Assembly: GCA_026874595.1 (NCBI GenBank)
Contig: CM049314.1
Span: forward strand, 72,862,300-72,926,299
DNA length: 64,000 nucleotides
Direction of reading: 5' to 3'
Source of the DNA: Sipunculus nudus
Taxonomy: Eukaryota > Annelida > Sipuncula > Golfingiida > Sipunculidae
Shown: one piece after another, positions 3,765 to 64,000 of the stretch
Layout: every line of letters starts with the position of its first letter
How positions within the stretch are numbered: the stretch's first letter is position 1
Notes under the pieces: generated by a model
The model's database searches: none
Told to the model about the DNA's origin: nothing
Seen by the model: the letters and a program-made list of their open reading frames with translations, nothing else
Translations under genes and position numbers: made by a program

Positions 3765-6700
3765 TGCAATATCAAAGGAATGCAGTCTTTCATAAATTAA
3801 TGAAACACCGAACTGAAGCATACTCAACTGGCCTCAGCTGGGGAATTCGATACAATATTGCATGATGTTGTGACGGCACTATGTTTATTTTATTCGATGC
3901 CAGTTTCATTATACGCCCGATTCATCTCAAGGCATGTCTCCCCGCAATAGCTATACACGATTCCATTTCCCCTGTCCACCTATTTTCTCGTGAAAATGTT
4001 TATATAATGTACTAAAGCTTACCTTGATTTACCCCATAATTAAGTCGAATTAATGTGGCGATTACCTAACAGCAAAATAATGCTTTCCAATATAAAGATT
4101 CATATGATTAATTCAGATAGAGTTATTAATTAACAGATTATGATTTTGCGACATATCAGTGACCACCTAAGCTGATGACCTTAAATTACATACATTAGGC
4201 GATTTGTAGTGATGACGCTGCTGTGGTATTTGTACGTCACATGTTTGTTACATCACACATATGTCCCCTACAAAAAACCGATAAAGATATAAGGTAACTT
4301 GAACTGACGCAATCATTCCTGTAGCTCTTTCTAGAAAGGTCAACACCGTCATGGCGCCACAAAGTAAATATATTTTATTTCCTGCTTATTAATATGATCA
4401 TCATAGATCGCCAAAATACCTTCTGTGAAGAAAAACGTTAATTTTTAGTCCCCAAAAAATAGTTTGAAAGAAATAACGCGAAAAGAAGTTGAAATGGGGT
4501 TTGGAACAGAGTACAGTAAAACTGGCAGCTGGTAGAGCTATCTTACAAGCGCCGACTCTTTTTATAACAAAAAGAATCGGTACACGTATCGCTGATAGCA
4601 CTGTCTGATAAATGTAGGTAAAAGGAACCGAACAATAAAAAATGACTTTGTTATACTGCCGTCTGTATATTCCAGATATTAAATGCACTAACGTTCCCTA
4701 CCCGTTCGTTACCAGTTACGTTGTACCCCTAATACGTCATACTACAAAGAAGACTGGCTATATTTTTCAGTTATTGATCAATAACATAAACACACACCCG
4801 TGACAAGTGAACCTTGTGTGCCACTGGCCATAGGAATAACAAGTCTGAGGAAAATTTGTAAATTAATAAAAAACAGATCAGGAAAAACTTTGAATATTTC
4901 AAACCTTACTTACCACAAGTTGTATTGTAAGAATCAAATCGTGTTTGCTGATCTAGGAACAATTTGTAATGTCTGACTCTGTATCAACAGTGTAAAGTGA
5001 AAGAGAGCCTTTTGCCTTGATTGAGAGTAACAATCTACTATTTTACTTGATACACAATTGTATTTGCCGTCAGGTTCCGCTCCGATAGCCACTTCAAAAA
5101 CATTTTTTAAATATGTCTAAGATTACGGAAATATAAGAAATTAGACCCCCTTAAGGACACAACCTGCATCATTCACGTAAATTCAAGAAAATTTTTCCCA
5201 TATCAAAGGCGTGACCACAGGGGTGTTCCGTTACTAAAGTCAAGTGAGACCACCGTCAATTATCCTTTAGGCGATGCACGCGACTAGAAAAAAAATGCAG
5301 AACTATAACCGTGTTTTTTAAGACATTGTGCCATTAGCCTATGTATTTTTTTAATGCTCCGACCATTTGATACCTCCCAATGAAAACAAAATTATACGTG
5401 AATCAGTTCCTACGAAGTTCGTGCAAACAAACCGGGGAAGAGTCTGGCATATCAGGCATACGCCCGAAATTTTTATGGTCCGATGAGCCGAATTTCGTGT
5501 AGTCTGGTGTATTCGTCGGTATTAAAAAGTGTCGTATGAAAAATTTATCGAGATTCCTTAGATCTGCTTCCGACCAGCAGAATGCTGCGGATTTCCAAAA
5601 TATAAGGTATTTGGACCATTACGTTTGCGCTGAATCGTTGAGGTTTCATCTAGATTCCACTAATTTACTTTTCGGTCATTAACCAGATCGTAATGTATGA
5701 CTTTTACCACTGGAATAAACGCTTCCTCTTTTGTCTTATATTAATGAGACTATGAATCAATGAATAGCTTTACTGAACGCGGTATCTCTAGACACAACTT
5801 TTCCATTTCCATTTCCATGTCATGTACCATCATATAAATCATAGCACCATGCAGTGGCAAAATAATCAATGCAATCGCCTCATTCTGTGTGCAGGATATT
5901 AACAGAAAATATGTAGTGGTAGATACTTTCAAGCTGCTTTCAACTTTTTATCCTGGGACATATCTGGAAAAAATAACAAAGAATAGATGAATAGAAAAAT
6001 GTGTCCATTTATCTAAAAATAATGGAATGAAACCTTGTCCGCCTCTTTCCTAACACCCAGAAAGTGAAACATTACGGACAGTAATAATAATAAAACGCGA
6101 AAACCCATCGTGTATTGTTTACAGGACAAATCGTAACCGCAATACTCAGTATACGCTCCCGAGGCAGCGGAAATCTTGCGCTTCTAAAGAAGCAACTGAT
6201 TTTCACGCTGCCAGCTTTGACCGTTTATGATATATTTAGACACCAGATGGCGGTTCGTTGTCCGCTGAAAAATACGTGCGTATGATGTGACAAGCAGCCA
6301 ACCAGATGCCAATAAACAAAAACTCGACAGGCATCATGGCTCCGCCCGTAGCTGCGCTTCAAGCGCCGCTTGATAAGTTTACGGACGAATTTTAATTGCT
6401 CCCTCTGCATTATGGCATCATCGACCGATTCGATTATGACATTATGACTGTGTTAGCGTAGCCATGTATCTGTTGTCTGCAGAACTGAAACCAGCCAGCG
6501 AGGTGTGCAAGTAGCCTTTGTTGTCAAGTTTCGTTTGAATTACAGCTCACCGGCCGGGCATCCTATGTGCCCACGTCTGGGGCAATTCTCTCTGAGCCTG
6601 TGGCCTGTTACCGGGGCGATGAGCTGTCAATCAAAATGAAATGATTATGATTGGCCCCGTGTATTCCTCGCTTGGCAGTGTCTTCCAGCACAAAGTCTTA

Positions 6701-8622
6701 CCTGATTGGACAAAAATACAGTGCTCCCCTCTGGTGTAGCAATTCAGGATACGAGATCATAACAAACAGCGCTTGGGATATAGGTACTAGGCCTATAGTT
6801 AAAGCGCTGTGTAAAGAGCGTATACTCAGTAAGGTAAAATGTCCTGATAGGTTCACAGTGAGAACCAAGAAATAGGTCATTGTGACCTATATTCTTCTTG
6901 TTATGGATAGACATCCTGCGACGCACCGTCTGTCCATTAGCAGTAAACAAATCGTAATTATAAGATCCAGACCGTTCAAATTCACAAACTGGCAGGCCCT
7001 TGAGGAAACAAAAAAATACATCATCATGACTTAAATCTCTAAGTTATTTAGCTTAAACATAAGTAGCCATCCGTCCGTGAGTTAACAGTCAAACAATCGT
7101 AACCATGAGACCCAGGAAGATTGTTCTGCACTTTCTGAATCGTCTTGATGCGTCCCAAGTATCATTTTCTACGAGTTCGCGAGGAAAAACTTCAGAATTT
7201 GTCCATTTGTTATCAGGGCACAATTCATAACCGTAAGATTCAGACTTCATATTGTGACAGATCCAGATATGTCCTTGTGGAAAGAGAAAAGTAGGTCACT
7301 GTGAGCCATAGTCTCACTTGTACTAAGCAAAGGCTCCTGTCAGTAAACATAGAAAAAGGCAGATTGCTCAAAGGAAAGTCTCGTTAGATTGTCATGATAT
7401 TCTGAATATAAACAGAACTTGCAGTAGTGCTGCAGGACACTGGTGGTGCCATCTGCAAACTCACTTGTATATCTGAGTAGCCTGTGGTCTAAACATCAAC
7501 AGCGCAGAAGTTGAACCACGTACAATCGCTTTAAATTCAGGTTTTAGTATTTACATTTCAGAATGATGGTGGTTTTCGATAAGCAAGGCACAAAATGTAG
7601 CTGTTAGTCATCAATGTTATGTATATGTACATCAAGACATAATGAGATATCTAAAGAGGCCGGAAGAGACATCGTACAAAGACACAAGCTTTTGTTTTGC
7701 AGAAGCTCAGATGTCTGCTCAGGGCATAACAGGGTAGAAATGCTAACATTAGAAATGTGAAGTTAAGATTCTACATGTAAACTGGCTGATGTAACAGTTT
7801 CTTGGTAACTCTAGTTTAAGTTACTCTGGTGTATATGTATACAGTTCAATGGTATCTGGCAATTTTGCGTCACCTTAGCGTTAAGGTCCATGAGCCACTG
7901 GTTTTATTTGGGCACAAAGGCAGAATTTCCAATCAATTCCATTTCAAGAAACGTTTACTGCACATTCATGATTCTCCGATTATATGAGACAAAAAGCTTT
8001 GTTTGAAAACCGTAAATACCTCCGCATGGCGAAATAATCAGCTATATTATAATAATAAATAACATAGTTTAAAGTATAATAATGTATTTTTATTTTAAAT
8101 TTTTACTCTTTTATCAAATGTGAAAACCCTGTTTGCCCATTTGCAAAACTCTTCTTTGATACTTAAAATAAGAAAGAGCCAAATTTAAGATTAATGTATT
8201 GCTGAAAACTTTTTTTAATTTGTTCATTTTTTTTCTGAATTGTTTCAAAAGAAGGTGTTTGGCAAATGCCCAATTCCCAATTTTCAAAATGGATAAAAAG
8301 CCATGCCCTGTGACTATAGTGACCTCAACCATACTATCTTAATCTTTACCGGAAATAAATCGATGATCCTCTCATCTTAAACGCATGCTTCAACAGGCCT
8401 TGTGTCCTCAAGGTCTGTCAAAGTGGTACACAGATATCAATTAATGGTATTGTTATCATCGTTTCATGGTGTTCATTATCAATGGCGTTCAGTCGGCCGA
8501 AAGAGCGTCAGTATATAGTCAGAATGGAGGTACCGGTTTATGAGTTTCAGCGATTTGTTTGTTTCCGATTTCACGACATGAAAATCCCCAAAAAGGAGGT
8601 CTTAAAATTTTAAATCAATAAA
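3765..8622. other. Gene-free start of unit 1
   Basis: No gene seen. Conserved in order with 30,521-34,900, and partly with 54,370-57,000. Short frames here (for example minus strand 4,401-4,688 and 6,225-6,410) are not kept open in the matching units, which argues against coding. Parts of the 6,480-6,890 stretch are GC-richer but carry no recognisable element. Confidence 0.55.
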
Positions 8623-10851
8623 TAGGGACCACCACGACCGCTGGGGGCCCTTGCGACCAACTTCTCCGCACAGCGACAATTTTTTGGTTCTATATTACGT
8701 CTATATTACGTTTTTTGCCGTTTGGCTCTGACGAGAGTGAAAGAAACACTTTCGGAGTACGCTGTCAACTTTAAACGGTTTGTTTCTTATTCATACTAAA
8801 TCATTATATCATTCTGACTTGTAAAATAGTTGAATTACAATGAAATAAAGCCGTGGCGGTCGTTTAAATGTTTTCCACGATTGTAGCGCCCCCTTGTAGC
8901 AGGAGACAAGATGGTTGATATTGAAAGACCTTGCGCGATAATAAGGGTTTTTATCACAATGTATATGACGTATCTGAACAATTTTTTTTTTAATTGCCTT
9001 TTACTGGTTATATTTCACGTAACTGGATAAAACCGATGAATAGGTGATATTTGAATATGTAATCGGGATGATCTGTACCTATAAAACATGACCTGTATTA
9101 TTTGTTGTTACTGAAATAATTTTTTATTTTTATGTCAATGTACTCTTTTTTTTACTTTTACTTCTTCAGGTCAAGGAATTGTATATTAGTGTACAAGTAC
9201 TGTACAGTCAGTAAACATTGAAATATTTTAATGTTTTAGTTATTTCATGAATAAGAAAATAATAAAATTCAGTTATAACCTAGAAATAAATAATATATTT
9301 TTTTTTATTTGAAAAGATATTACTGTAACTTGAAAAAAGGAGGAACTAAGAATTCTGTAGGTCTTTAGAGGTAACTAGTTTTATTGTTATTTACTTCCAT
9401 TTACTGTTAATAAAGTTGTTTTATCAGGTAAGATTTCGTTATATTGGAAATCATTTTATGTAACCCCAATTACCAGTGACTGGTGAGTGATATTTTTGCA
9501 TTGACATTTTCTGTCATAATTCTTATATTTTTAATTTAAAAAATCATGTGTTCAGTAAGGGTTATACCTGCTTTAGACCTGTTATATTATTAATGCTTAC
9601 TGCATCAATTTATCATCAAGGGGAATGACTCTCAGTTGGGACTTTATAATTTTCTTTTATGAACACATACACACAGACACACACAGTCACATATATAAAT
9701 ATATATACCCCTTATAGTGTGTGTATGACACATGACACGTATATTACAATTAATTATAAGGGTTTAATGAAAAAAAATTAGCTATTATGATCCCATTACA
9801 GATTTGTTCTAAACCATCTGAAAAAATATTTCATAGTATACTCATAAATATAACCAAAATCTATAATTCTATAATTTAAATGATTATGTCAAAATTTTAA
9901 TTGCAGTAATCCTGTACAACATTTCATGCCTCAATATTAAAGTTAATTCATTTCTGTAAATTTACTTTTTTAATGTATATTGGAATTTCTTAAGTCCTTC
10001 CCTATTCATGTATATGCTGCACTCCCATGTTCGTGTTGTATTTGTCAACATGTATGTTGTTAGGTTGCCTATCAAGTGAAACATATCTTCACTTCCTCTT
10101 TTTGTTCTTATCACATATCATATTTAAATTTTGTTCGTGCTTGAGTTTTCTTATTGCATGTGAAACTAACCTTTATTTGCATGGCCTGTTTTAAAAGTAA
10201 GCAGTAGCAATAATTAAATAGTTCACAGTTTATGAAAAATACCATTGTAAATGTAATTATATAAAAATTATATAAGCAACACATATTTATTTTTACTGAT
10301 TTGAGTTTTATTCACCATACTTCAGGTTCTTGTAGCAGCTCAGCAGTGACATCCAAGAACTTTACCCTGCTAGTGGACATCCTGAATATCCCAAGAGAGA
10401 TGATTCATGTACTGGTCAAGGCTTTTGCCTCTCAGATATGACTATATCAAGCAGCAACACAGTGATTAAGTAATATTTTTCTGCTGCGGACTGTAAAAAA
10501 TTGCAAATATGGCAAACTTTATGCTAAGATTTATGACAGTTTGCATCACATCTGACCAGTTTCCCTTATTTGTGGCAATGAGACAATGTCTGGAGAACAA
10601 AAGAAAACACCTGTCAAGCTGTCTGAATAAATGTTTTTTAATGTGTTGCAGACTGAACCAGTTTTTTTCCATAAATTCAATAAAAGCTCAATTTCCGAAT
10701 GTGAATGCGTTTGTTTTCATGATGTATAATACCTAGGTGATTGTCAGTAATGATCAATGAATAATATTTTCTGATTACTGGCATCATTAGCTCTTTTGAT
10801 ACCCAACATGTGATATTTAACCCATTTTGAAAAAATGGTTGGCGGTCCCTA
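8623..10851. mobile_element. 2.2 kb non-autonomous DNA transposon with TAGGGACC termini
   Basis: Present only in unit 1. Unit 2 (near 34,880-34,920) and unit 3 (near 56,985-57,010) run continuously through this point. The left end reads tagggaccaccacgacc, and the right end, reverse-complemented, reads tagggaccgccaacc. This gives a terminal inverted repeat of about 12 bp with one mismatch. A direct repeat CAATAAA flanks both sides (8,616-8,622 and 10,852-10,858) and is the likely 7-bp target duplication. The interior is AT-rich, with an (AC)n/(AT)n patch near 9,665-9,710, and has no transposase frame. The superfamily is uncertain; termini and duplication length recall hAT- or P-type elements. 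Confidence 0.7.
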
Positions 10852-12256
10852 CAATAAACCATGGATACGGCAGATTGCCGGAGCAGTTATAAATGTACCA
10901 TTGCTATACTTTAGGCTTCTTTCTTGAGAATTAGAAAAAAAATTCCCTTAATTCATTTCATCTATGTCAATCATTCGAATAGCACATATTAAAAGTATTA
11001 TGCTGGATTCCTGTATGATATACCAGCTGCCATCCTATATTTTAGCCTCTTTTTTGAGAATCAGAGACATTTCCCTAAATTACGTTTCATATATGGCAAT
11101 CCTTCAAAACGTACACGTGCTGATAGTCTGCTGTAATGTGGTAATATAAACCAAGTTTCCCGATTTCGTTAAATAAAATTGAAGAAATAAAAAAAAAATC
11201 GCTATGATCACAAGAGAATTAGGAAAATATAACCTTAAAATCAAACATACCACCTAAATTCATATCAATCATTTGAGTAATACGGAACCAGGTTTCAGTG
11301 TTTTCAGTTTTTGCATATTTTTCATTCTGTATTTTTATAACTTTATGTTGCATTCATAACATAAGCCGGGAGTTTTATGTTTGGTCTCTATATTAAAATC
11401 ATTTCACATAAGTACATTCTTGAGTCACCCGATACATGGAGAATGTAGCTGATTGATTAATTTATCATAATCTGGAAATGTTATGCTCGCTTGTCAGTTT
11501 TCCCAGCAGTTATGTATAACTTCCACAAAAGGAGATTATTTTTTTACCGGCGGTGATTCTTAGCTACATTAGTGAAATAGTTATTTACTGACTTGATGAA
11601 CTTTCAGGATAGCTTCTCAATGATACAAGGGACAATTGATCAAATTTTAGGAGTGACTCGGAACACTTATTGGATCCAGGCATTTTTAAGGGAAAGATGA
11701 CATTTGGATAATGAGCTGCCTTGGTGGATTTCTGAGCTCTCTGAGTGCTTTTCTTAGTTTGTTTAACAAACCACTAAAGCAACGTTTACTCAGTACAATT
11801 AGTAAGTGATGTTCTTGTTCATAATACCATATCAAGTAGACAATTTTCTTAACGAATAAATATGAGAAAAATGGAACCTTATTTGGACACAAAATAAAAT
11901 AACATGAAAATTGTGTAAATACTTCTCACGGCTGATGAATGTTTTAACGGTGTCGAGGTTGACAGACACCCGTGGAAGAGTCCAGGAAAGTACATTAGCG
12001 GCATTGATACATTGTTGAGAAATCGATTTATCTTAACCCGGAAATGCACAAGCTATGGCCAGAAACTTAAGAAAGATTTGAATGTTTCACAATACTCTGT
12101 GGCTAGTCCACATTTCTTAAAACAAAATCAAGTTTAGCGGATTACTCAAATTGTCACTGTTCAGGTTATAAGGTAATTTTCAGCTAATTGAGTAGTAATT
12201 TTCAGGGATTGATTAGTTAATGAAACACGAATGACAGTTCTCCCGCTGAACAAGCG
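10852..12256. other. Conserved spacer upstream of the broken gene copy
   Basis: No gene seen. Positions 10,860-11,930 match 34,910-36,010 and 57,000-57,930. The match makes this a useful backbone for comparing the units but gives no coding signal. Confidence 0.5.
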
Positions 12257-12346
12257 GTGCAGCATTAGTAACGGACTAATCAATTGAATCCTTTATTGTA
12301 TCCGCCTCTGGTCATACGTGGCGCTCTATTGACCGATTAGCCGTGA
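12257..12346 (+). promoter_or_regulatory. Conserved upstream block of the A-type gene (unit 1 copy)
   Basis: A block of about 90 bp containing 'actaatcaattgaatcc' and 'tgtatccgcctctggtcata', retained about 400-480 bp upstream of the A-type start codon in all three units (also 36,457-36,545 and 61,744-61,830). A second shared block, 'caactcggttaatgttt...gggactgctcttgt', lies at about 12,451-12,495. Conserved position and sequence suggest a promoter or 5' untranslated region, but they may reflect only the recent duplication. Confidence 0.35.
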
Positions 12347-12740
12347 TAAATAATGTAATGATCTGAACTATATCACCGAGTATTTAATCCAACCAATCTT
12401 CTTCTGTTGTCCTGTTTTATGCTCTGTAGCCCGTGAACATGTAACTTGGGCAACTCGGTTAATGTTTCCGTGAGTGGGGGACTGCTCTTGTGTGCATCAC
12501 TTTTTTAAGTTTCATTAGTTCCCAAAAATGGTATCTGGAAACCAAAAGATCTATTTAAAAATATAGAGCACATAGATATGCTAAAAAAAATTGGTCCAGA
12601 AATTATTTCATTCACAAGGGAAGACTTTCTTCACTGAAGATATTCTTTGTTAACTAATAACCAGGAAAGAAAAAGCATTGTCTCCTGGTCGTAAACCAGC
12701 AAATTCCGTGAAGAAGAGCTCGGAAAATGGTTTGTTAATC

Positions 12741-13283
12741 ATGTACTACATCAACTTCTTGACTGCAATCCTTTTGTTGATTGGAAGATCACTGTTAACC
12801 AAAAAATGTAAGCATTTTTCGGATTCAGGATTATTAGCTGCTTCTCCCGTATGTACAACATATTCTTCTTTGACTAATTGATTTTCTTCTAGCGCTAAAA
12901 ATCCAAAATGTAATTCCTTGGAGTGGCTTTCTGAAGAAAGCAAATACCGCCTCTATAACGAGGGTGAGGATGACGGTTCCTCCGTGAGTTCCGCAGACAC
13001 CAACTTGTACATAGCTATAACCCACCTTGTTGATGGTATTTTATTTTTCACGCCACCGCTGATAGTGTCGACAATTAATGGACATCACAAGGAGGTACTT
13101 ATCTGGCGTCTTGCAACGGGCAACCGTCAAATCCTGCCATCCAAGCAACAAGTCATTACAAAAATGGACCTCATGATGTTTGCCAATAATGCAATTTTAA
13201 AATACAATACTTGCTTATTGCCATTTGCTAATTCAACTGCTATGGGAACGGCCAACACTTTGGCGGTGTTTCTTACTTTTTAA
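12741..13283 (+). pseudogene. A-type secreted PAN-like protein, broken copy
   Basis: Decayed relative of the intact gene at 62,241. It starts with the same ATG and signal-peptide-like head (MYYINFLTAILLLIG) and then keeps frame to the first PAN cysteine, where a Cys codon has become TGA (12,879-12,881). The frame reopens and covers the rest of the PAN-like domain (KCNSLEWLSEESKYRLYNEG), with the fourth motif cysteine also lost. Around 13,166-13,172 the sequence jumps from the equivalent of 62,683 to about 63,005 of the intact gene, deleting about 320 bp that encodes most of the C-terminal domain. A second deletion of roughly 30 bp follows. The final residues (FANSTAMGTANTLAVFL) still match. 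It is very unlikely to make a working protein. Confidence 0.85.
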
Positions 13284-16200
13284 ATCTTTAACATGAATAT
13301 CGCAGGTGTAAATTTTATATTAGGTTCCTTTAATTGTATACGTAAAGCTTCATGTGTAATCCAGTCAATAGTGTGGCAATGTATACATCTAAGTGCGTAT
13401 CTTAATTATTATTACGATCAAAAAAGGTACAGTCAGACGGCTGACATTACGAAATGAGTTTTAATATTTTCGAAACATTGTTTTCACATCTCATTAAACA
13501 TTTTAAGGTAGGATATAATTGTCTGCACCTGCCAAACCTCTCTATAACGTAAAGACACCACTATGCATCATTTTATACAATGTCTTGCTATACTCTGTTT
13601 CACAAACCATTGCCCATATATTTTAGAAGCAATAAACATACCTTATAATGATCAATAAACGTTAGGTTTAAATATAAATAGGATTCATGATCCTTATTCA
13701 AACCCAAAAATACTAATGTCACAGTATATTTAAAAACAGTTACTTGAATACATAAGGTTATTATATAAAAAAAAGTTTTCTTCCCTATCAATGACAGTCA
13801 TGAGCAAGAACAGCTCGTGGTTGTCCAAAACAGAAAACGTACGGTTAAGGTATGAATTATTTATGCCGAATATTGATGCAGCTCTTTGTTAAATTTTACC
13901 AACATGTGGGCACTTAGTGAGAGTATTTCTTATACATTGTTGATAGTGTAGATAATATAGCAGTGTATGTTTGGCAGGTAGCATAAAGACATTAATACTG
14001 TTTGTACATGCGTCAGCGATTTGATGTGAATTAATGAATGGAAACAGTTAATAGTTTGTTAACATTTAAACAGAATATAAAAAGACATGTCTGGTACCCC
14101 AAATATGTATGTTGCACGCTTTATGTAGCAGTTTATGAAATATATTTTTCTTATGTTCTTTTATTTGTTATCTAATGGATAATATCATCTCACAAGGCCT
14201 CGAGATTCCAATCTAGCATCAAATCTAAACTCTGGTCCCATCTCATGTTAATAATAACTAATATCATGCTCAAGGTTATTTGTAACTCAGAGAACAATTT
14301 GTCATGACATTTTAGTCGTTGTGTATCGAATCCCGAACTGCACTCACAAAGGCGCAAAATATCATGGAGCTTGAGCGCAACGGACGTGTATCTGTCTACA
14401 GAACCACGCACGTAAATGTTAGCATTAACAGCATACATTATAAATGGCTGTGACACAAGTTTAATAGATATATAGCCATTGTGCAAGGACGGAGTGTGGA
14501 TATGGTCGGTCAATGCGTCGGGCAAAATAATGTGGAGTCGCTCCATTTATGTTCTTGTTAAACTGAATCTTTTCAACTGCAGATACCTGAAATTAAAATT
14601 TACTATTTAATGATTATAAAATGCAAGTGGTCAATCTGGATAGGCGATTCCCATGAACCGGGTCATATCATATATATGGACGATGATATTAATGAACAGC
14701 TAACAGAGGCATTGACTTCCCATATCTTTTGCATCTTGTCTTTATAAAGTTAACTAGTAATATCGGACACTTTTGAGTACCTCGGCTTGCAGTTCCTTGA
14801 CCAATAAAAACAACGCCGATTCGCGGTTATAATTTTAAACCACACGAACCAGGGATTTTATTAAAAATAAAACACGCATACGTCATGTAAAAAACAATTG
14901 CAATAGAGGCAGTGGAGGTCCATCTGGGTAATATAGAACACCACCCGCTTATTATCGGGCAACCCGCTTTACGGGGACACCAAGGGCCAACAAGATTAAC
15001 AGTGATGTCATGGAAAACTGACGTTGACGGCTGGTTTAGATGCTCTGAAAAGCGCAAAACATGTTCATTTATGGGAAACTTTGTAAAAGCTTCCATGTTA
15101 TCAGTTTATCTACCACTGTTAACTCGTGGCTGCGTCAAGTCTTTCATTGACCTTATTCCTTGATAGTGACTGAGAACATGCCAGAAGGGTTGTCACAGAA
15201 AGACCGTTTATATTGACAGCGCAAATTAGAAAACAAAATGTATTTTTTATAAAATACCAATAAACACCAATTCTAGATGAACTGTCGACATAATGTGTGT
15301 ATTGTCCATGTTTATATAATGAGTCAAACATTATTTTTATTTCTGAAATACATCGAAGTCCAGGCCTATTGGTCTCTATATTAGGCCTATTGTGTAGTTA
15401 CTTCTGTTGTAATTCTGATTCATGGGAAATGCCGGAACTTATATATACCCTATAAGAATAAAAAATAAGTACTTTAATACAAAACTGCAATTTCATATCA
15501 GTATAAATAGTTAAACAATAATATGTGTTAAATTTTATTTTTTTGTATACGTTTTTATTAAATGCTTAATTATATACAGTCACATCAAAGCAAGTCAAAA
15601 ATCCCTATCTATATAGCAAATTTGTTACATTATTAGTGTAATATGAACCTATGTGGAGCTGATTTACTCTATATATAACTCATATCATTACAAAAATTAT
15701 CAGCGCTTTAGAGTCAATAACCCGTTGTCTATCCTTCAAAGAGCCACTTTGAGCGATTGAAAATTTCCATGGTGCCGACTGTCAAAACAATTGTGCTCAA
15801 ATTTATAAAGCAAATATATAATGAAATGTGGACCTCACAAATTTCTTTACAATCCACGAAACGCTTACTTAACCTTGTTATTACCTATCTAGACCTCAAG
15901 AAATATTTTATCATTGGTGGTGGTCATAAGGGTGGTAGTTAGGCTGATAACATGGGACGAGATAGTATCATCCAGACAAAGTCATCTTTTAGAGTTAAGC
16001 AACCTTACATTAGAGATTGATGCACTGAACTAGACCTCCAGGGAAAACAATAGATCAGGTTAAAGTTGTCGAGTTGAAGGATATCAGTTCTGGTCTTCTG
16101 AACTATCTACGTAAAGGACGATTCAAAACAATACAATAGAGTAGACAGTGCTCTGTTGCACAGAAGTAAAGGCACACGCATTCGTCCAAGACATCTTTTC

Positions 16201-47708: not shown

Positions 47709-47712
47709 TATA
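47659..47712. repeat. (AT)n microsatellite, left
   Basis: Alternating A and T with one slip at 47,700-47,702. It abuts the first copy of the inverted SINE pair. Confidence 0.95.
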
Positions 47713-48251: not shown

Positions 48252-48253
<2 letters not shown>

Positions 48254-52718: not shown

Positions 52719-52908
52719 ATCGGGACGTCAATATGGATGAGTCTTGCATTCCCTATAATGCAAATTTCGAATAATAAAATGAGTGATGGGTTATGAAATA
52801 AACGTAAAATAATGCAAGTGACCAGTCGTTTCTTCTAATGTCATCACTCATTTTATTATTAGAAATCTACATTAAAAGGAATGCAAGCCTCATCAGTGTG
52901 GAGGTCCC
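52719..52908. repeat. Hairpin repeat with about 70-bp inverted arms
   Basis: The left arm (about 52,719-52,790: 'cgggacgtca', 'tcttgcattccctataatgc', 'taataaaatgagtgatg') is the reverse complement of the right arm (about 52,838-52,908: 'catcactcattttattatta', 'aggaatgcaagcctcat', 'gaggtccc'), with a loop of about 50 bp. In unit 1 only the right arm is present (about 28,925-28,998). It looks like a short MITE or an inverted duplication that arose after the units separated. Confidence 0.65.
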
Positions 52909-54369
52909 CCAAAATCGTATTTGCATTCACTTACTCTGCCTTTTTTCCTTGCTGCATGACCGTACATTTATGAAAATTCTTTCATGACATTCCTGGATCC
53001 GTCTCAAGTGTTGGATACATACCAAAATCTAATCGTTCCTTCATTGGCCAATACCCATAATTTGTAATTGTAAACGAACACACAAACAAACACACTAACG
53101 ATGATGAAAGCATGTCCTCCTAGAGAAAGCAATCACCGCTCCTTGGTTGGGCCCGATCATGAAAAATCTTACGATCACCCTGTACTCAACCAATATATCA
53201 CAGAAGCGGATCAGGTCCCCACATGTACTATACCGGTACAATTATTTTTGTTTTGTATAAATTGGGCTGAGGTGTCGTATTGTGGCTCAGAATATGTTTA
53301 AATGATACATAAACAAAGGACGATCGATCAATTTGTTGGAAGACTGAACACGACATATTCTTGTGGAGACGCCATTCAACAAGTTTCGTGTTTAAATATG
53401 TGTACATATTTCATGAATCAGACCATAAGTTCCATAGCCTGCGTCTGAATGCGTGTTGCATGGCAACTGAAATCACCCAAAACCCGACTGCTCTCCACTA
53501 GTTACATTTTTTTCATCTCTTTATCTTTGTGAATAGCACTTTTAGGAACTCCATAACATGTTAATCTGTTGAGGTCCACCCGCATTTTTTTTCTGTCTTC
53601 TTCGTCGTTTTATTATTATTATTTTTATTGTTCGTATTATTATTATTATTATCATATACATTTATAAGACGCAACATAACTAAGCAAGAATGCTGAATAG
53701 ATTGTGTATACTAACAACTTCAAATGAATAAAACTTATAAAACAAATTATTTTAGCATTACTCAAAATATTAGAGTCCATAAAAAATACACATTCCTAAT
53801 AAGATGGGTCTTTAACCGACTCAAACATTTAATTGGGGCTTGTTTAAAATTTCTGTGTCAACATTATCTCTCTGTTCGCTTGGTGCACTAGTGGGGATTA
53901 TTTCGAAAAACGCTATGTGACATATTGCGCGGACTCGGACTCACAAGAGTTTAGGGGTAATTGGCGTCACAATTTGGCCCCACAATACACCGCTGTTCAT
54001 GCGTACACCAGCGGCGTAATTTATAATATAGTGAAGAGGGTAGTGTAGTCCATAGAAACCTGAGAATGACCACGAGTGCTTTCGTTTACTTTACAAACTT
54101 ACACGAGTACATTATTACATTAATTAGTAATTCTACTTTTGACGGGGCACAACAGGGACATGCCGCCCAGTCCCCTTTAGGCAGGGTGACAGACCATAAC
54201 CTATTAACCCTCCCCCCCCCAAGAAAAAAATAATATGATGCAAAGACGCGTTCTTATTTTGCTAAATAAACAAATATCATTTTATCATTAAAATATACTC
54301 TTAATTCAATCCATAAAAGAATTTAAAAAATCCACCAACATTAAAAATATGTCATATAACGTATTGCAA
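52909..54369. other. Gene-free end of unit 2
   Basis: Matches 28,990-30,520 throughout. Includes an (ATT)n-type tract at about 53,610-53,652 and a short poly-C at about 54,212-54,220. No gene seen. Confidence 0.5.
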
Positions 54370-57300
54370 CGTTTCTCAAATATCAAAGGAATGCAGTCTC
54401 TCATAAATTAATAAAATACCGAAATGAAGCTTACTCAAATGGCCTTAACTGGGGGTTAGGTATCATGTTGCATGATGTTAGGACGGCACTTTGTAAAATG
54501 TTTATTTTATTCGCTGCCTATTTCATTATACGCCCGATGCATCTCACAGCATGTCCACCGCAATCTGGTGTCAAACTCAATAGCTGTACATGATTCCACT
54601 TCTCCTATCCACCAATTTTTTCGTGAAAGGTTTTATACAATTTACTAAATTCACCTTGATTTACACGAGAATTAAGTCAATCAACTGTAGCGATTACCTA
54701 ACAGCAATATAATGCTCTATATTGTATGAATTAATATTAATCATTAATTCAGATAGAGTTATGACTCAACAGATGTATGATTTTGCGACATATTTGTGAC
54801 GACCTACGCTGTCTATCTTAAACTACATACATAAGACGATTTGAAGTGATGAAGCCACTGTGGCATTTGTACGTAACACGTTTGTTACATCACACATAGC
54901 TCCCTACCGCACTAAACAGATAAACATATAAGGTAACTAGAACTGACGCAATTATTTCTGCAGTTCTTTCTAGAAAAGGACAACACCGTCGTTGCGTCGC
55001 AAACTTATTTAATTCCTGCTTATTTATATAAATCATCATTAATCGCCACATAACCTCCTGTGATAAAAGCAAATTTGAAGTACCAAACTAAATAGCTTTG
55101 GATGAAATAACACAAAAAGTAGGTGAACAGGGGTTTGGAACAGAGTATAGTAAAACTGACGACTAATAGAGCTGTCTTTCAAGCGCTGCCTTTTTTTTAT
55201 AACAAAAAAAGGTACACGGATCGTTGATGACACTGTCAGTTAAATGAGGATAAAAGTAGCCACACCATAAATGACTTGGTTTTACTGCCGTCTGTTTATT
55301 CCAGAAATTATAGGAACTAACGTTCCCTACCCGAACGTTACCAGTTAACTACCAGAAACAAAAAAATAGCTCATCGTGGATAAGATTATCTGAGTTATAT
55401 AGTTTAAACCTTGGTAACCATCCGTTCGTCAGTTAACAGTCAACAAATCGTTATCATAAGACCCAGGAAGGTCGTTCGTCAATTTTTGATACATCTTGAT
55501 TGGTCCTCTGGGGAAACCAAAGCGTACGTCACAATATGCAATATTCTACGAGTTCGCGAGTAAATATTCCAGAATTTGTCCATTTGTTATTTGTTATCAG
55601 TTCAAACTTCACATGCTGATAGATCCAGATGTGGAAAGAGAAAAGTAGGTCACTATGAGCCATAGTCTCACCTATACTAAGCAAAGGCTCATGTCAGTAA
55701 AAATTTATAGATAAAGCCAGAATGCTCAGGAAATATCTAGTTGAATTGTCATGACATGCAGTGCTGCTGTCGGACACTTGGTGTGCCATCTGCAAACTAA
55801 CATGTATAATTGAGTAACCTTTGAACAAAACTTCAGGAGGACAGAAGTTGCACCATGTAAAATCTCTTATATTCTATGTATTTATATTTGTATTTCAGAA
55901 CAATAGTGGTTTACCCATAAGCAAGGTACAAATTGTAGCTGTTAGTCATCAATGTTATGTGTATACATCAAGGGATGATGAGATATCTCAGGAGACCGGA
56001 ATAGACATGGTTCAAAGACACAGGTTTCAATTTTCAGAAGCTCAGAAGTCTGCACATATTTAGCGAGCTAAATATTAGAAATGGGAAGTTCAGATTCTAC
56101 ATGTAAACTGGCTGTTGTAAAGGTGTCTTGGAATCCCTAGATTAAGTCACTCTAGTATATGTAAATGAGCGTTAAGGCCACGGGCCACTGGTTTTATTTA
56201 AGTACAAAGGCAGATTTTCTCAATCAACAGTTCCATTCCAAGAAACGCTTACTACACATTCAGGATTCTCCGATTCTATGAGACAAAAGGCTTTGTTTTC
56301 CCATCGTTCCTCAAATAATCCGTGGATCACCTTCGCATGGCATTATAATCAGCTATAATATAAAAATAAATAACAACACATATTTTTATTCTATAATTGT
56401 TTACTTCTTTTATCGGATAAGGAACCCTGTTTGCCATTTGTATAACTTTGAAATTTAAAAAAAAAGTGCAAAATTTCCGAAAAGCAACTACTTAATGCAT
56501 TGCAGAAAACTTTATAATTTTTTATTTCTTTTGATGTTTTAACAAAATAATATGTTCCATTTTTTTCTGACATTGTCGTTCCAACAGATAGTGTTGAGCA
56601 AATGCCCAATTTCCAATTTTCCATACGGATATAAAGAACCTGCCTAGTAACCATTTTGACCTAAACCGCACTTGCTTAACCTTTAGCGGAAATGAAAAAA
56701 AGAGCCTTTCATCTAAACTGTATGCTTTGTCCCTGTACAGGAATTATTTCTAACTCAACAGACCTTGTGTCCTCATAGTCTGTCAAACCTGTCAAGGGTT
56801 GCACAGACATCAACTAATGGTATTGTTATCATCTTTTCATGGTATTCATTATTGATGATGTTCAGTCGACCGAAAGAGCTTCAGTCTATGGTGTAATGGG
56901 AGTAAATGAGTTTCATCGATTTATTTGTTCACTGCAGCCCTCTGATTTAACGACATGAGAACCCCCATAAAGCAGTGGAAATTTACATCAATAATTCCTG
57001 AATACGGCAGATCATCAGTTATAAACATTGTACTATCGTTATACTTTAAGCTTCTTTCTTTAGAACCTAAAACAATTCCCTAATTTACATTTCATCCATG
57101 TCAAACTTTCAAAATACACACAATACAAGTCTGTTGTATTCTTGTATGATAAACCAGCTGCCATCCTCATACCTTTTACTTCTTTTATTGAGAACCAGAA
57201 ACACTAAGCAACATTTTGTTTCATTTATGTCAATCCTTCGAAACGTATACGTGCTGATAGTCTGCTATGATCTGGCAATATTAACCAACTTTGCTGATTT

Positions 57301-57980
57301 CGTTAAGTAAAATTGGAGATATAAGAACATTTCCCTTTAATTTCAATTTTACTGTTTTGCTAAATTTGTAAAGTGTATGATGAATCTGTGTCTGGCTAAC
57401 TCATAAAAAACGCTATGCAAGCAAATGTTATGCTTTCATGTCAGTTTTCAGAGCAGTTATGTATTACATTCGTCAAGGAAGTTCAGTTTTGCCGACGTTT
57501 GCTTATTTGTCTGTTTGTTTTTTATGTTAGCAGCATTACTCAAAAAGTTCTTCAAATATTTTGAGGAAATTATCAGGAGAGTTTAACAATGATACAAGAA
57601 ACAATTGATTAAATTATAGGCGGTGATCCGGATTACCATCTTGATCCAGAATTTTTTAAAGGAAAAATGCTACATTTCTTACAATGCTATATCGGGGTAC
57701 TGAGCTGTGTTTTCTGAAGGCTTTTCTAGGTTAGCACTCTGCCTTGTTCAAACAAACCTTAAAAGCAACGTTTATTCAATACACTTAGTATGTTCGGTGT
57801 TCTTCCTTATTTTACCATATTAAGTAGACACAACATTGAACGAAGAAAAACAGTATGAGAACAAAAGCAACCTAATCTGCACACAAAATACAATAACTTG
57901 AAACAAGTGTGTAAATATTGCTCGAGGCTGATGATTGTTTGCCCGCTGTCAAGCTTGACATACATCCGTTCCAAGTCATC
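54370..57980. other. Gene-free start of unit 3, with a deletion
   Basis: No gene seen. It follows units 1 and 2 up to 'cgttaccagttaac' (55,335) and then jumps to the equivalent of 7,005 or 33,108. It continues to about 57,930, matching the flank of the 2.2 kb element's empty site near 57,000. Confidence 0.5.
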
Positions 57981-58399
57981 CGTGCTGATTATAACTAATA
58001 ATATGTTTACATTCGAAGGAAAAGAGAATGGAAATTTATAAAACGAAAAGAAATAATAATATTACCCTGATGTGATGCTTCCACATTATCATAATATGGA
58101 GTAAAGTATTAAGAAGCCTATAGCAATTGACAAATTCTTTGATAAAAAAAATGATAATTATAATTACAGAAATTATATAATAAATTCAGTGAGTCCTCAC
58201 ACGTAACAGTTGGGTATCTGACATCCAGTTTGATTTTTTTTAAAATATTGTTTGTTTATATAAGTTGAGAAACCTTGGAGGCTATGAGTGTATACCTCTT
58301 CAATAATCAGTACATTGGTATCGTTTACGTTTTAAGTCATATTTGCTTCGTTTATTATACGGCACACTTCATTTCTTGGTGTTATTTTCAAATTGTAGA
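57981..58399. other. Left part of the unit 3 insertion
   Basis: No counterpart in the other units and no recognisable gene. It may include the 3' untranslated part of the LINE whose coding relic begins near 58,400 on the minus strand. Confidence 0.35.
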
Positions 58400-61000
58400 A
58401 AAATAAAGGTTACTATGGATTTACGTATCTAATGTGGAACTTTTAGACATTAAGAGTAAAATTGTCTTCCACTCGCAAAGTTTCCAGTGCCTTAAAAAGT
58501 GGTTCTGAGTGAGAATTATATTTAATGCTTGTCACCGTAAGTACAATCCTTTATTGCAGCTTAAAATATTATTGCTTTTAAGCCCCCATGCTAATATACC
58601 GTAATTCACGTGTGGTAAAATCAAACTATTGTATAAAGTCGTGAGTATGCGTACGGGTAAGTAATGTTTTAGCTTAGTATTAACACCAATACATTTAGAC
58701 TTTTTTGTTTAAATTTCGAACCAAAATGTTCATCGAGAGTGATCCCAAGAAAATTTAATTCGTCCACTCTTTCTAACTTCAAAGCCATTAATTCTAATTT
58801 TATGTACTTTTACATTATTTTTCTTTTTCTTTTGCTGTGAAATATAATATAATTAGTTTTCTTGATATTCAGAGATAGCTTATTTACACATACCCACTGA
58901 TATATGTTATCTTATTCCTGATTAATTTTATGCGTGTCTTCTTGTGAATTAAAACTTGTGACGGGACACACAAGAGTCGTATCATCAGCATACATTTTGA
59001 ATCGAAAGAAGGAAGATGACCTCCAGATATCTTTAATGTATATGGTAAATAATAGGGGACCTAGGACTGAACCGTGAGGCACACCTGTTGATAGAGAGCG
59101 TGTGTTTTATCGAAACAATTTCAATATAATATTTACGGTGCTCAGAAATTTACGAACCATGTCAGCGAAGTGTAACTTAGCCATCTTATTATAAGTTTTT
59201 GAATAAAATATTATGATCTAGTGTGTCAAAGCTTTTGACAAATGAAAAAATAAGGCGAGAGGCGAAAAAGCATGATCTATGCTGCTAGTAATAATACTAT
59301 GACCCCAAGTACTGCATAGTCTGTAGAATAAATTTTTATTCCAAAGCCATATTGACAAGAATACATCAAGTGATGTTCAACAGAAAATGGAATAGCTGAT
59401 CATAGACGATTTTCTCAAGTACTGTTGACATTAAAGGTAAGATTGAAATCGGACGATAATTTTCTGGAAAATATGTATCTTGTTTCTTCAGTAGAGGGGC
59501 AATTTTTGCAAATTTCAATTTGTCAGGGACTATGCCAGTGCGTATGGACCTATTAATGATAATTTTTATGGTTCATTGATGACAGGTTCCAGCCTTCTCA
59601 ACAACTTGGTGGACAATCCGTCATATCCACAACTTGATCTTGTAGGAAGACATGTATTGTATTATTAATCGCCGTGTTTGTAAGAGCCTTTAACACAAAA
59701 TCCGTTGTTCCACGCTGTTCAAGATAATATGTAAAATGTACGTTTCCTGTTCAAACTATACTATCCGCAAACTTACAACCTATTTCACCAAAATATTTGT
59801 TTAGTGATTTGTAATTGAGTATTTATTATCAGCCGCTTTTGATTAACATTGAAATAGTCTGGAAAATGTTCACCATTCGATCTGTGCATGATGTCATGTT
59901 TGCCAAGTTTGTCTCAAGTGGGGATTTATCATACATGGTTTAAGCATTGCGTATTAATCTTTTGAGTATCACATTGTATGCTCTAAGGTTATTTTTGTGG
60001 CATTTTCATAACTACATGGTTTTGTTATTTTAATAGACTTGTACAACTTATCCCTAAACTTGATAGATCTCATAATGCCAAATGTGATCCAATTAGATAT
60101 TTTTTGTTTATATTTACAATGTGGTCATTTTTCTAATGGCATATGTTTATCTATTGCTGTACATATTATATTTTCGAGAACATCATATGTTGTATTCAAA
60201 TCGGCTGGATCATCCACATTAAGATTGCGTACAATATCCATTGTGCTTAATTCATTTTATAGGGACATTATCGAGGCTTCATTAATTTTATGATACTGAA
60301 GGAATTCCTCTGTCATGTCATGCTCGGTATTTATTTCAATCGTAAGAAAATAAGGCAAATGGTCAGTTATCTGGCTGATAAGAATGCCAGCAGAGCACAA
60401 AGACATATCAGATATGTTGGCAAATGTGTTGTCAATATGAGTAGCACCAAAAGTGCTAAAGCGGGTTGGAAATTTGACAGTAGGCATTTAATTTTATGCA
60501 AGTTTCCAGAAACTGACCGTGACTCTTCTTGTCTTTAATTTTTTAATAAATCAATATTAAAATCGCCAGTTGAAATAATGTCAGACTTGCAACGATTAAG
60601 TTCCTGAAGTAACGGATCAAGGGATCTATAAAAGCACACACGGTTGTATTGCTGATGTTTTCTTTCGGAAGGCGATAGATATTAACCAATGAAATACGTT
60701 TCTTGCTATTGCTTTTATTTTCAACGATAATTATCAACCCTTCCCAAAGTTCAAATTTATTTAAACAACTCCGAATATTAAACGAATGTTAATAATGCAA
60801 ATAAATTTAAAATTATATATAATGTAATTTTCTAGGTGCAACAAAGATATATCAGAGCTATCGTCAAGCCAAGTTTCTGGGAGGCATATTGCATCAAATT
60901 CATAGCCACATTGTTTCCATAATTCGACAAAAATATGAAGCTTATCAAACTTAGCATTTATACTTTGGCAATATAATGATAGAACCGAAAATATAAATTC
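58400..61000 (-). mobile_element. LINE (non-LTR retrotransposon) relic with endonuclease and reverse transcriptase
   Basis: Read on the minus strand from about 60,990 downward. An endonuclease start (SLYCQSINAKFDKL, then AICLPETWLDDSSD) comes first, then VNIYRLPKENIS (about 60,670), STGDFNIDLLKN (GDFN at 60,556-60,567) and an ISQITDHLPYF end (about 60,360). Further on are reverse transcriptase motifs: GVPHGSVLGPLLFTIYIKDI (about 59,040-59,095) and the YADD catalytic box (58,981-58,992). Near 58,590-58,650 is LYNSLILPHVNYGILAWG, typical of the RT-proximal C-terminal region. Frames are broken by several stops and shifts, so it is inactive. The order EN then RT places it among Jockey/CR1/I-like LINEs; I cannot choose between them. 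Confidence 0.82.
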
Positions 61001-61743
61001 AGATTTCTAGATAAAATATCATTTAAGGTCATTACGTGGTCCGACAAAGAACAAGTAAATATATGAAGATAATAAAAACTGAGATGTTTCTATACGTCAC
61101 AATAACCAAACTAGAACATATTGCATTGTTTAGAAAAAATATACAATTTTTAATACAAAATGTGCAATTGAAACGTTAAAAGAAGCTATAATAATAAGTG
61201 AGTTTTTATCCAAGATAATCAATTGTACAAGAAACATAATACGAGTCTGATTCGTAACATGTGCTTCATTATTAAGAATAATTTCTAGAATTTTTGGAAT
61301 TAAATAATTCTTTCCAGTTAAAGGTATGCTTAAATAAAAAATGACATAAGAAATATAACATGAGCTACAAGCACAATAATCAAAGTCTTGGCATGTTCCA
61401 AGTCATTTCCGATATGTGACAAATGCACATGTGGGCCAACGTTTTAGTCGTCAGATTTCGGGAACATGATATAAAAGTGCTGGTACCTGTGTCGATGGCT
61501 GAATATAAAGTCAATAAGTTAATCACGGAGGGTGAAACGCTAAGCCAGGTACGGCACTGTTACAGGTGTTTGGACCAGTGTTTCCTTTCAAAAATCAAGA
61601 TACTTTTACATAATGGTGCCTCTGTCGACAGCTGAATGCCTTGACTCCTGGCCTTTCATGGCGAGTGAAACGTATGGCCAGCAAGGGTAATATTTCACTT
61701 GCGATTTTTGTTTTAGTACCTTTGGGAGTTCCTTTCTTTGTCA
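61001..61743. other. Right part of the unit 3 insertion
   Basis: No counterpart in units 1 or 2. It could be the upstream part (5' region or first ORF) of the LINE, but I recognise no motif. A plus-strand frame of 70 codons (61,423-61,635) has no domain. Confidence 0.35.
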
Positions 61744-61830
61744 TTAATAACAGACTAATCGATTTAGTCCTGTATTGTATCCGCCTCTGGTCATACATCG
61801 GGCTCTCTTGAGCGACGAGCCATAATAAAT
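61744..61830 (+). promoter_or_regulatory. Conserved upstream block of the intact A-type gene
   Basis: Contains 'aacagactaatcgattt' and 'tgtatccgcctctggtcata', then 'cttgagcgacgagcc'. It lies about 410-500 bp before the ATG at 62,241. The second shared block 'caactcggttaatgttcccg...gggactgctcttgtctcc' is at about 61,949-61,992. A third, directly before the start codon, contains 'cgaagaagagctcgagaaaa' and is shared with the dead A-type copies. Functional promoter status is inferred only from position and retention. Confidence 0.4.
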
Positions 61831-62240
61831 AATGTAAAGATTTTAACAATAACATCGGGCATTAAACCCATTAATCTTCAAAAGGTTTGTTATAATCTTT
61901 TGTTGTCCCCTGATATGCCATGTGGTTCCATTACCATGTGACGTGGACAACTCGGTTAATGTTCCCGTTAATGCGGGACTGCTCTTGTCTCCATCCGTTA
62001 TAAAGTTTCAGCCCGGTCAATCATCAGCACGTCAGAATGGGAACTGCATACCAAGAGTACATTTTGAGGAATATAGAGTTACTGGTTATCTTAAAATGAC
62101 TGGTCTATAAATTGTTTCATTAATAATATGAGACTTTCGCCATTGAAGATGTTCTTCGTTAACTAAGGACAAGGAAAAAAACATTTTATGTTTTTCTCTA
62201 TCGTTAACCAGCAAAATCCGCGAAGAAGAGCTCGAGAAAA

Positions 62241-63149
62241 ATGATGTACCACATCAACTTCTCAACTGCAATTGTATTGCTGATTGGAAGATCCCTGTTA
62301 GCCAAGAAATTGAAACATTTTCCGGATTCAAGAGTATCAGCTACTTCTCCCGTATTTACAACAAAATCTTCATTGAATAACTGTTTCTCTTTTTGCGCTA
62401 GCGATCCAAGGTGTTATTCCTTCGAGTGGCTTTCTGAAGAAAACATATGCCGCCTTTACAAGGAGGGTGAGAATGACGGGTCCTTCGTGAGTTCCGCACA
62501 CACTGACTTGTACATAGCTATGAACCCGCCCTGTGGATGGTATCTTGTGTTTCACGCCACCGCTGGTATTTCACAGAGTGTCGCTAATTTGTGGACGTCA
62601 CAAGGTGGTACCAATCTCACGTCATGGGACGGAAACCCGCCAAACCTCGCCACAAAAGCGACAAGTCATTACAAAAGTGGACTTGTGGACATTTGGGAAA
62701 CTCTGAATCCATCAGAGGCTAAGTTTGTGTTATATAAGAATGGCGATGAAGTTGTTCATTTCTTATTCAATGCTATCGGGAGTGACAAGATGAACTGGTT
62801 TTCACTTGATAGATTTCGCTCTGGTACCTATTCAGATATCAAAGTAAAAATGTTGTCACCATCCTGCACTGGTCTGGGATGTAAGTTTTCCATAATGGGC
62901 CACCCTGAGAACCCAGGAGGTGCACATCGAAGATTTCTTGTAAGCTGGTATTACAGCGGCTGTCCTAATGACATAGGCTGGATGATGGTGATAGAAAAAG
63001 ATACGCCTCATGATGTTTGTGATTTTGCAACTTCCAAATATAATACTTGGCCTGCGTTCATGTATTCTAAAACAGGACAAGCAGGGCGATTTGCTGATTC
63101 AACTGCAATGGAAACAGCCGACACTCTGGCTGTGTTTCTCAAGTTCTGA
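62241..63149 (+). CDS. A-type secreted PAN-like domain protein, intact (302 aa)
   Basis: Single-exon gene, function unknown. The start is ATGATG; the leading residues (FSTAIVLLIGRSLLA) form a signal peptide ending near residue 21. The PAN/apple-like core uses Cys-48, 52, 58 and 70 (NNCFSFCASDPRCYSFEW, then ENICRLYKEG). A conserved domain runs from Cys-98 (PPCGWYLVFHATAG) to the end, with W118, W129, SHYKSGLVDIWETLNP (142-157), SDKMNWF (181-187), Cys-209/214, RRF (230-232), GCPNDIGWM (240-248) and WPAFMYSK (270-277). Cysteine count and lack of another hydrophobic segment fit a secreted disulphide-bonded protein. It differs from the B-type gene at 17,540 mainly between residues 192 and 230 and near the C-terminus. 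The two broken relatives upstream, at 12,741 and 36,958, share its 5' flank. Confidence 0.9.
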   Translation: MMYHINFSTAIVLLIGRSLLAKKLKHFPDSRVSATSPVFTTKSSLNNCFSFCASDPRCYSFEWLSEENICRLYKEGENDGSFVSSAHTDLYIAMNPPCGWYLVFHATAGISQSVANLWTSQGGTNLTSWDGNPPNLATKATSHYKSGLVDIWETLNPSEAKFVLYKNGDEVVHFLFNAIGSDKMNWFSLDRFRSGTYSDIKVKMLSPSCTGLGCKFSIMGHPENPGGAHRRFLVSWYYSGCPNDIGWMMVIEKDTPHDVCDFATSKYNTWPAFMYSKTGQAGRFADSTAMETADTLAVFLKF

Positions 63150-63160: not shown

Positions 63161-63166
63161 AATAAA
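63161..63166 (+). terminator. Possible polyadenylation signal
   Basis: AATAAA starts 12 bases after the stop codon of the A-type gene. That is close for a functional signal, and AATAAA is common by chance in this AT-rich DNA. It is the only canonical hexamer directly downstream that I noted. Confidence 0.3.
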
Positions 63167-64000
63167 ATTCACTATATATATTTATATGAAATATTTTTTA
63201 GTGTATATCTATTATACTTAAGATATTCCAGTAGTTATATATATAAGATATATTTGTTTATATTATAATAATATCAAAATATTTTTTTAAAAATGTATTG
63301 TTTGTTCATTAATTTCCTGTGTAAGCTTCTCCACAAAGCACATGTACAGTTATTGATTTTTGAGTATACTGTTACTGCCAAGCATAACAAAATGTGATAT
63401 GTTTGGACGTACGAGCGAAGCCTCAACTAGTGAGGTCTCATCTCATATATATATTATATTTCCGATGATTAACCGAACAGCTAATGAGGTTTAAAAATAA
63501 TTGGTTATCATTCTGAGAGGCCTAGCTGTTTTATTTTACATCGTAAAGAATTATCCAGACTTTAAGACTATTATCACATAATCCATCGTAATATTTGACC
63601 TTTTTAGAGGTTGATACAGAATCATCATCAATCATTCAATCTTTCAGCTTGACCTGACTGATAGATTGTGGAGGAGAACTAGATTTTATCTTCACTTTTA
63701 CTCATTCTTGATACTACAGGTACGCAGAATAGTAATTAAGTTATAGTTTTGTATTAGTTGTATTGTTCACTGGTTGCATGTAAAATTCTAACGTATAATT
63801 TAATCAAAAAAGCAACACTGTGTATCACATGCTACAGATTTTTACACTAGTTGTGTCTTTTGGCAATTATCGAATTTACATCCAAGTATATATATATAAC
63901 CAGGGATGTAGTAAATGAAAATTTTTTGAAAGAAATATCATTTGTTTCTTAAATCCATCTTCCTTTAGGTCTTTATGTGGCGTGAAATTTCCACTGTTAT
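63167..64000. other. 3' flank of the A-type gene
   Basis: No gene seen. AT-rich, with '(ta)n'-like patches near 63,170-63,260, 63,445 and 63,887. I could not see a clear match to 13,284 onward in unit 1. Confidence 0.45.

Follow-up and report, generated by a model that had tools for sequence, protein, structure and literature searches.

Composition of the tandem array

A 64,000-nucleotide stretch of the Sipunculus nudus genome (assembly GCA_026874595.1; 1.43 Gb, 153 contigs), hereafter the window, was analyzed computationally. The window corresponds to C9:72862300-72926299 (C9, contig CM049314.1), with window position w at C9 position 72862299 + w. It holds part of a tandem array of single-exon genes for probably secreted PAN-domain proteins, with hybrid genes at the internal joins between units. 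Thirty kb were added on each side of the window, giving 124 kb (0 N). Coordinates are window positions unless a contig is named, and the genes and half-units described in the window lie on the + strand. Among the papers listed in literature searches, titles and abstract openings showed none that was recognized as concerning this gene family or an array of PAN-domain retrogenes.

Four intact open reading frames (ORFs) of the family were found in the 124 kb, at about -13.7, 17.5, 62.2 and 88.3 kb; a gene at -23.9 kb is frameshifted, and relics or fragments number at least seven (12.7, 37.0, 37.3, 72.0, 72.3, 82.1 and 89.6 kb). An earlier sequence-only reading of the window had anticipated this pattern in proposing birth and death of copies. 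Two of the intact ORFs are inside the window (17540-18433 and 62241-63149), where relic copies lie at 12.7, 37.0 and 37.3 kb. Genes of a left-hand type (A), a right-hand type (B) and a hybrid type (C) were ordered from left to right as A, A, a B relic, C, a relic of C joined to A, B, B relics and B. Synonymous divergence between A and B was saturated, and on sequence comparison the two are old paralogues.

The window was compared with itself by BLAST (matches 150 nt or longer and separated by more than 5 kb), which returned 32 direct and 2 inverted high-scoring segment pairs (HSPs); the direct HSPs covered 30,539 of 64,000 bases. By the same criteria a 60 kb control (C9:40.00-40.06 Mb; 5,000 N) yielded 2 direct HSPs, with 729 bases covered, and five first-order Markov simulations gave 0. 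The tandem repeat is genuine and not a product of chance. The ordered direct blocks of the sequence-only reading were recovered where it had placed them, and the array was followed into the 30 kb flanks. Aligned pairs were 3764-6149 / 30525-32904 (78%), 3768-4718 / 54379-55347 (79%), 6830-8234 / 32920-34370, 7005-8621 / 55355-56994, 12257-13064 / 36452-37276 and 12263-13169 / 61742-62682, and one block was matched in all three copies (10852-11195 / 34903-35248 / 56989-57327).

Blocks were of two main kinds, X (DNA leading up to a gene) and Z (DNA following a gene), with unit edges falling inside a gene; this order was read directly from the alignments. X was located at 3.76-13.2, 30.5-37.3 and 54.4-62.7 kb, and Z at 17.7-30.5, 37.3-54.4 and -13.5 to -2.1 kb. 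A third block, Y, lies between neighboring B-type genes (13.2-17.3 kb, and ~73-79 and 82.5-88 kb to the right of the window). The sequence-only reading had described three units of 24-27 kb. Three X copies were indeed present, but only two Z copies lie in the window, and self-BLAST offsets gave spacings of 21.8-26.8 kb for X and 20.8-24.8 kb for Z copies 1 and 2. Over aligned bases without gaps, X copy 2 was 82.5% identical to copy 1 and 82.8% to copy 3, and copies 3 and 1 were 81.4% identical; Z copy 1 was 81.9% identical to Z copy 2, 91.6% to the Z copy left of the window and 82.0% to that of a second cluster (below). Gaps between self-BLAST blocks showed that the copies carry differing insertions and deletions.

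The first X half-unit (3764-13169; self-BLAST to 30525-37283 and 54379-62682) is the 5' flank of a B-type gene and ends in a relic of one (12738-13273). This relic has a stop inside and an internal deletion of ~324 bp: 12263-13169 resembles the intact gene B_62 and its flank up to 62682, and 13169-13273 resembles 63006-63139. Spacer Y follows (13220-17279; matches at 73.1-78.7 and 82.5-88.0 kb), and then the intact hybrid C_17 (17540-18433). Z copy 1, the 3' flank of an A-type gene, runs from 18434 to 30525 and was identified by self-BLAST and by its identities to the other Z copies. Within it, identity to the left Z copy in 500-bp bins was 94.5-98.6% over 22700-28200, compared with 77.5-89.2% in the bins to the left of this tract and 90.6-93.5% in those to the right; the tract looks like the result of a gene conversion at a later date or of a recent, nested duplication. 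Self-BLAST also delimited X copy 2 (30525-36957), Z copy 2 with its own insertions (38909-54379) and X copy 3 (54379-62240). Between X copy 2 and Z copy 2 lie a truncated hybrid (36958-37297) and, fused to it, a relic A-type gene (37298-37975) that starts upstream of its own ATG and is 77% identical to the frameshifted gene A_m24 and 82% to the intact gene A_m13. B_62, an intact single-exon B-type gene, occupies 62241-63149. At 21771-22673 a ~180 bp unit is repeated about five times in tandem, and it recurs in the Z copies left of the window.

The array extends past both window ends, with a further Z copy on the left and a continuation at a period of ~10 kb on the right. A second cluster was found on the opposite strand at C9:73.628-73.670 Mb, ~0.7 Mb away, in the order hybrid-Z-X-B-X-B-Y and with three intact ORFs; 62 kb of that region were examined (0 N). 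The best 40 of 1041 candidate genome matches to X block 3764-6149 were scored, and the only long ones were the two other X copies. The remaining 37, on many contigs, fell on a dispersed repeat of ~560 bp at ~3950-4520. The alignments of X copy 1 to copies 2 and 3 cross this repeat unbroken, so it predates the duplications. For Z block 24836-28256, matches longer than ~500 bp were confined to the two C9 clusters among the best 40 of 1762, with shorter ones elsewhere. Compared with the sequence-only reading, the breaks of units within a gene, the intronless state of the family, the larger array with its inverted offshoot and the hybrids at the joins are additional.

Protein family

Members are single-exon ORFs of ~300 residues with a hydrophobic N-terminus (judged by eye), a PAN_1 domain and a further part of ~200 residues. 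PAN_1 (PF00024) scored 31.0 and 26.9 bits in the two window proteins, over the curated Pfam cut-off of 21.4; in B_62 (302 aa) the ORF and Pfam place it at residues 26-91. The proteins are probably secreted, to judge from the N-terminus. Four cysteines, also identified by eye, are common to A, B and the hybrids. AlphaFold2 models of the two window proteins (from two sequences) had a mean predicted local distance difference test score of 33.9.

The C-terminal part gave no Pfam match up to E 5 in any of six members and no PDB match up to E 5 with a six-sequence profile. A single-sequence PDB search returned no more than weak matches to ribonuclease MC1 (E 0.23-0.65 over ~43 residues), which were taken as chance. 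This part (62535-63146 and 17822-18430) contains cysteines and is conserved between the C9 genes and multi-exon relatives on contigs C1 and C7 (L010-L014); it probably constitutes an undescribed domain family.

Hybrid genes at the unit joins

Hybrids with a B-type 5' half and an A-type 3' half occupy both internal unit joins of the window, at 17.5 kb (intact) and 37.0 kb (truncated). A third, C_7366, is intact and heads the inverted second cluster. All three share one switch point, which was observed directly and lies in a short, well matched A/B stretch. C_17 has a B-type N-terminus and PAN domain and an A-type C-terminal part: it is B-like through the T codon of LVFHATAGISQ and A-like from there on, with the break between alignment columns 152 and 156. 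At sites where A_m13 and B_88 (the intact gene at 88.3 kb) are discordant, C_17 was A-like at 6/136 before the break and 190/204 after it, and C_7366 at 7/136 and 161/193. The chi-square values of the hybrids were 158-263, and none of 2000 shuffles reached that of either intact hybrid. The truncated hybrid, which has stops inside, was B-like to the FHAT codon (1 A-like site) and, in the ~11 codons before it is cut, had 9 A-like sites, 1 B-like site and 1 matching neither. As controls, B_88 gave a much weaker break (chi-square 11.4, reached by 85/2000 shuffles), and the relics at 12.7 kb (loc12) and 72.3 kb (loc72) were mostly B-like across the switch point.

Trees were built from 291 codons, excluding columns gapped in other genes. 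A_m24, frameshifted near its end, was excluded from the 3' approximately unbiased (AU) tests and from the 3' outgroup tree, and was cut at column 296 for estimates of the ratio of nonsynonymous to synonymous substitution (dN/dS). The 5' data rejected the 3' tree (AU p 0.0008) and the 3' data rejected the 5' tree (AU p 5e-40).

The flanks of C_17 switch along with the gene over kilobases. Its upstream flank matches that of B_88 (17002-18100 with 87776-88874) and its downstream flank that of A_m13 (17735-18834 with -13462 to -12335). At the 37 kb join the downstream side has been cut by a deletion or other join. Hybrids at both internal joins, A genes on the left, B genes on the right and the joint switch of gene and flanks form the signature of unequal crossing-over, and the proposal to that effect in the sequence-only reading is supported.

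Multi-exon relatives and probable intron loss

Five distant relatives were located at C1:44.596, 44.620 and 9.29 Mb and C7:2.905 and 2.946 Mb, with the C-terminal part in separate exons (splice sites judged by eye). Two internal introns were present in all five, a separate PAN exon was found in three and a separate last exon (ADTMAI motif) in four. The intact C9 ORFs read directly through the positions of these introns. Both C7 copies have a stop or frameshift in an exon and may be pseudogenes. A GC donor was noted by eye at the last intron of four of the five relatives (L010, L011, L012 and L014).

The lack of introns in the intact C9 ORFs makes a retrocopy the probable ancestor of the C9 family. 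The 3' protein tree included three of the five relatives; these outgroups attached between the A/C and B lineages, and one retroposition before the A/B split therefore suffices. Traces of a poly-A tract and target-site duplication are not expected, since A/B synonymous divergence is saturated.

Selection and possible function

Ten gene pairs were estimated in all, and dN/dS bootstraps were run for eight comparisons. The ratio was 0.26-0.40 in four B-gene pairs, with bootstrap intervals below 1, and 0.63 for the two intact hybrids (bootstrap 0.42-0.98). On these values amino-acid constraint is directly visible, and B genes and hybrids alike appear to be maintained as proteins, with weaker constraint on the hybrids. 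For B_736a/B_736b, the PAN part taken by itself gave 0.78, on 20 changes. Proteins or sugars are the usual binding partners of PAN domains. For the C9 proteins the most probable role would be extracellular recognition or adhesion through this domain, with about an even chance.

Model of array growth and alternatives

The observations can be joined in a single account, which we hold to be very probable as a whole. The spliced mRNA of a multi-exon gene, probably for a secreted PAN-domain protein, would have been reverse-transcribed and inserted on C9. This retrocopy would have duplicated and split into A on the left and B on the right, with Z and X between them. A and B would then have mispaired and crossed over inside the gene, at the W-x-LVFHATAGISQ stretch just past the PAN domain. 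Exchange of the B gene on one chromatid with the A gene on the other would give A-Z-X-[B/A hybrid]-Z-X-B, in which Z+X is repeated in tandem and a hybrid gene sits at the join. More unequal exchange between the now long repeats would have added units, leaving a hybrid at both window joins and in the inverted cluster. Partial deletions would have followed in several copies, and at least one tract of 5-6 kb would have been homogenized.

Several results weigh against this account. Z identity is uneven (left Z and Z copy 1, 91.6%; Z copy 1 and the second cluster, 82.0%), the reverse of what one simple history would give, and later conversion or nested duplication is therefore needed. In the 3' half C_17 grouped with A_m13 and not with the other intact hybrid (support 95), and a single origin of the intact hybrids barely escaped rejection there (AU p 0.057; 5' half, 0.17). 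Columns 222-280 of C_17 follow A_m13, and a grouping of the two hybrids was rejected in this segment (AU p 0.0066), a pattern that resembles subsequent conversion or a younger, nested duplication. C_7366 retains a few B-like sites just past the switch. Constraint on the hybrids is weak, with 96/5000 replicates at dN/dS of 1 or more. The PAN exon was not found in two of the five relatives, nor the last exon in one.

The sequence-only reading had named tandemly placed haplotypes as the result that would overturn it, and heterozygous animal genomes do often show unmerged haplotypes as tandem duplicates. Such an assembly artefact is extremely improbable here: near-identity at the allelic level, expected of unmerged haplotypes, was not seen, and the copies are not haplotypes because most differ at ~18% of aligned bases, the 8% of one Z pair being less decisive. 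Copies with different insertions and deletions, the fixed order of A, B and hybrid genes and a 124 kb region without N argue in the same direction. It is also quite improbable that the hybrid type is ancestral, with the 5' half of A and the 3' half of B replaced later and separately. In its favor, A is the divergent type in the 5' half and its flank, B is the divergent type in the 3' half, and three hybrid copies exist. Two replacements at one place with matching flank changes would nevertheless be needed where crossing-over needs one, and the 3' protein tree with its three outgroups separates A/C from B as sister lineages. Conversion-like tracts (columns 222-280 of C_17; 22.7-28.2 kb) show the kind of event by which half-gene conversion could have made hybrids in units duplicated otherwise. 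Both flanks of C_17 switch with the gene over kilobases, unlike a tract ending within it, and we give this origin little credence.

For the origin of the intronless state, stepwise loss of introns on C9, or gain in the C1 and C7 relatives, would dispense with retroposition. Intact C9 ORFs lack any intron and relatives on two chromosomes share internal intron positions, making this route unlikely. The nature of the first duplication is less constrained. Replication-based template switching between A and B would yield the same product, and the 37297/37298 join does not connect matching places of the two genes; the well matched A/B stretch at the switch suits either process, and the data here do not separate them. 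We infer meiotic crossing-over and consider template switching somewhat unlikely. Unequal crossing-over between A and B remains the preferred account. A more far-reaching idea is that the locus, as an array founded by a retrocopy, acts as a domain-swapping machine: a single hot spot between the PAN module and the undescribed C-terminal domain would recombine again and again and so create new pairings of a secreted recognition protein, some of them selected. This idea is doubtful and is offered tentatively.

Other sequence content

Stop-to-stop ORFs of 85 aa or more numbered 48 in the window, compared with 20-36 in ten simulations. Ten besides the two PAN ORFs were scanned against Pfam and gave no match over cut-off, the one match being far below it (14.6 of 30 bits). 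In a crude, low-power scan of the unit alignments, the PAN gene was the only shared open frame of more than 100 codons among the six lowest rows per comparison; the scan was uninformative for the near-identical Z tract. An open frame of 158 residues without a Pfam family was noted at 42811-43284 (+), its sole genome relative found being a decayed copy at C4:75.268 Mb. The longest simulated ORFs were 123-159 aa, so frames of 158 residues are not unusual.

Rfam gave one match in the window, a tRNA at 47779-47853 (-), and ARAGORN found no tRNA in the window. The match sits within paired inverted arms that have TA runs on either side (47659-48253) and is perhaps a tRNA-derived element. A dispersed element of ~0.4 kb (18897-19288; inverted copy, 51891-52307; best 40 of 4505 candidate places scored) takes part in three of the four inverted self-BLAST matches. 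Elsewhere in the assembly, nine oxidase genes with near-equal scores lie on small contigs (C60-C62, C66, C72, C74, C75 and C89), and C123 carries a different oxidase. The C60 oxidase is bacterial-looking and at most 58% identical to the genome-contig loci listed, and both of the COX1-type hits that were read, of 11, have a bacterial look; a symbiont or contaminant, possibly of several strains, may be the source.

Comparison with known systems

Unequal crossing-over is itself a textbook process, of which the C9 array is a good and unusually detailed new example. A single assembly is enough to see how the cluster grew: the crossover point lies within a gene and is common to three hybrids, two of which retain open frames. 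The case suggests that tandem arrays can arise from a retrocopy and that entire domains can be exchanged as an array grows. Like PAN/apple proteins (PF00024), the C9 proteins carry PAN_1 over cut-off, but they then add ~200 residues without a Pfam or PDB match, a part that merits its own description.

In the anti-Lepore globin arrangement both parent genes are retained, with the hybrid between them. The C9 locus likewise has both parents with a hybrid between, but its assembly contains three hybrid copies, two of them intact.

The closest likeness in layout described here is to the human FCGR2A-FCGR2C-FCGR2B cluster. Non-allelic recombination duplicated the module in between, and FCGR2C is a hybrid whose extracellular part comes from FCGR2B and whose intracellular part comes from FCGR2A; the modules, of ~80 kb, are ~94% alike and contain other genes, with a stretch of higher inter-module identity (PMC6563257). 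C9 shares both the order A-module-hybrid-module-B and a higher-identity stretch between modules. It differs in that its modules are roughly 21-27 kb, mostly ~82% alike and at least three in number, that no other gene was found in them and that its genes are intronless. For the retrocopy step, amphioxus SYCP1 offers a parallel, a single-exon retrogene that replaced its multi-exon parent (PMC5803294). Both cases place a single-exon copy at a new site; unlike SYCP1, the probable C9 retrocopy founded a tandem array and intron-bearing relatives persist.

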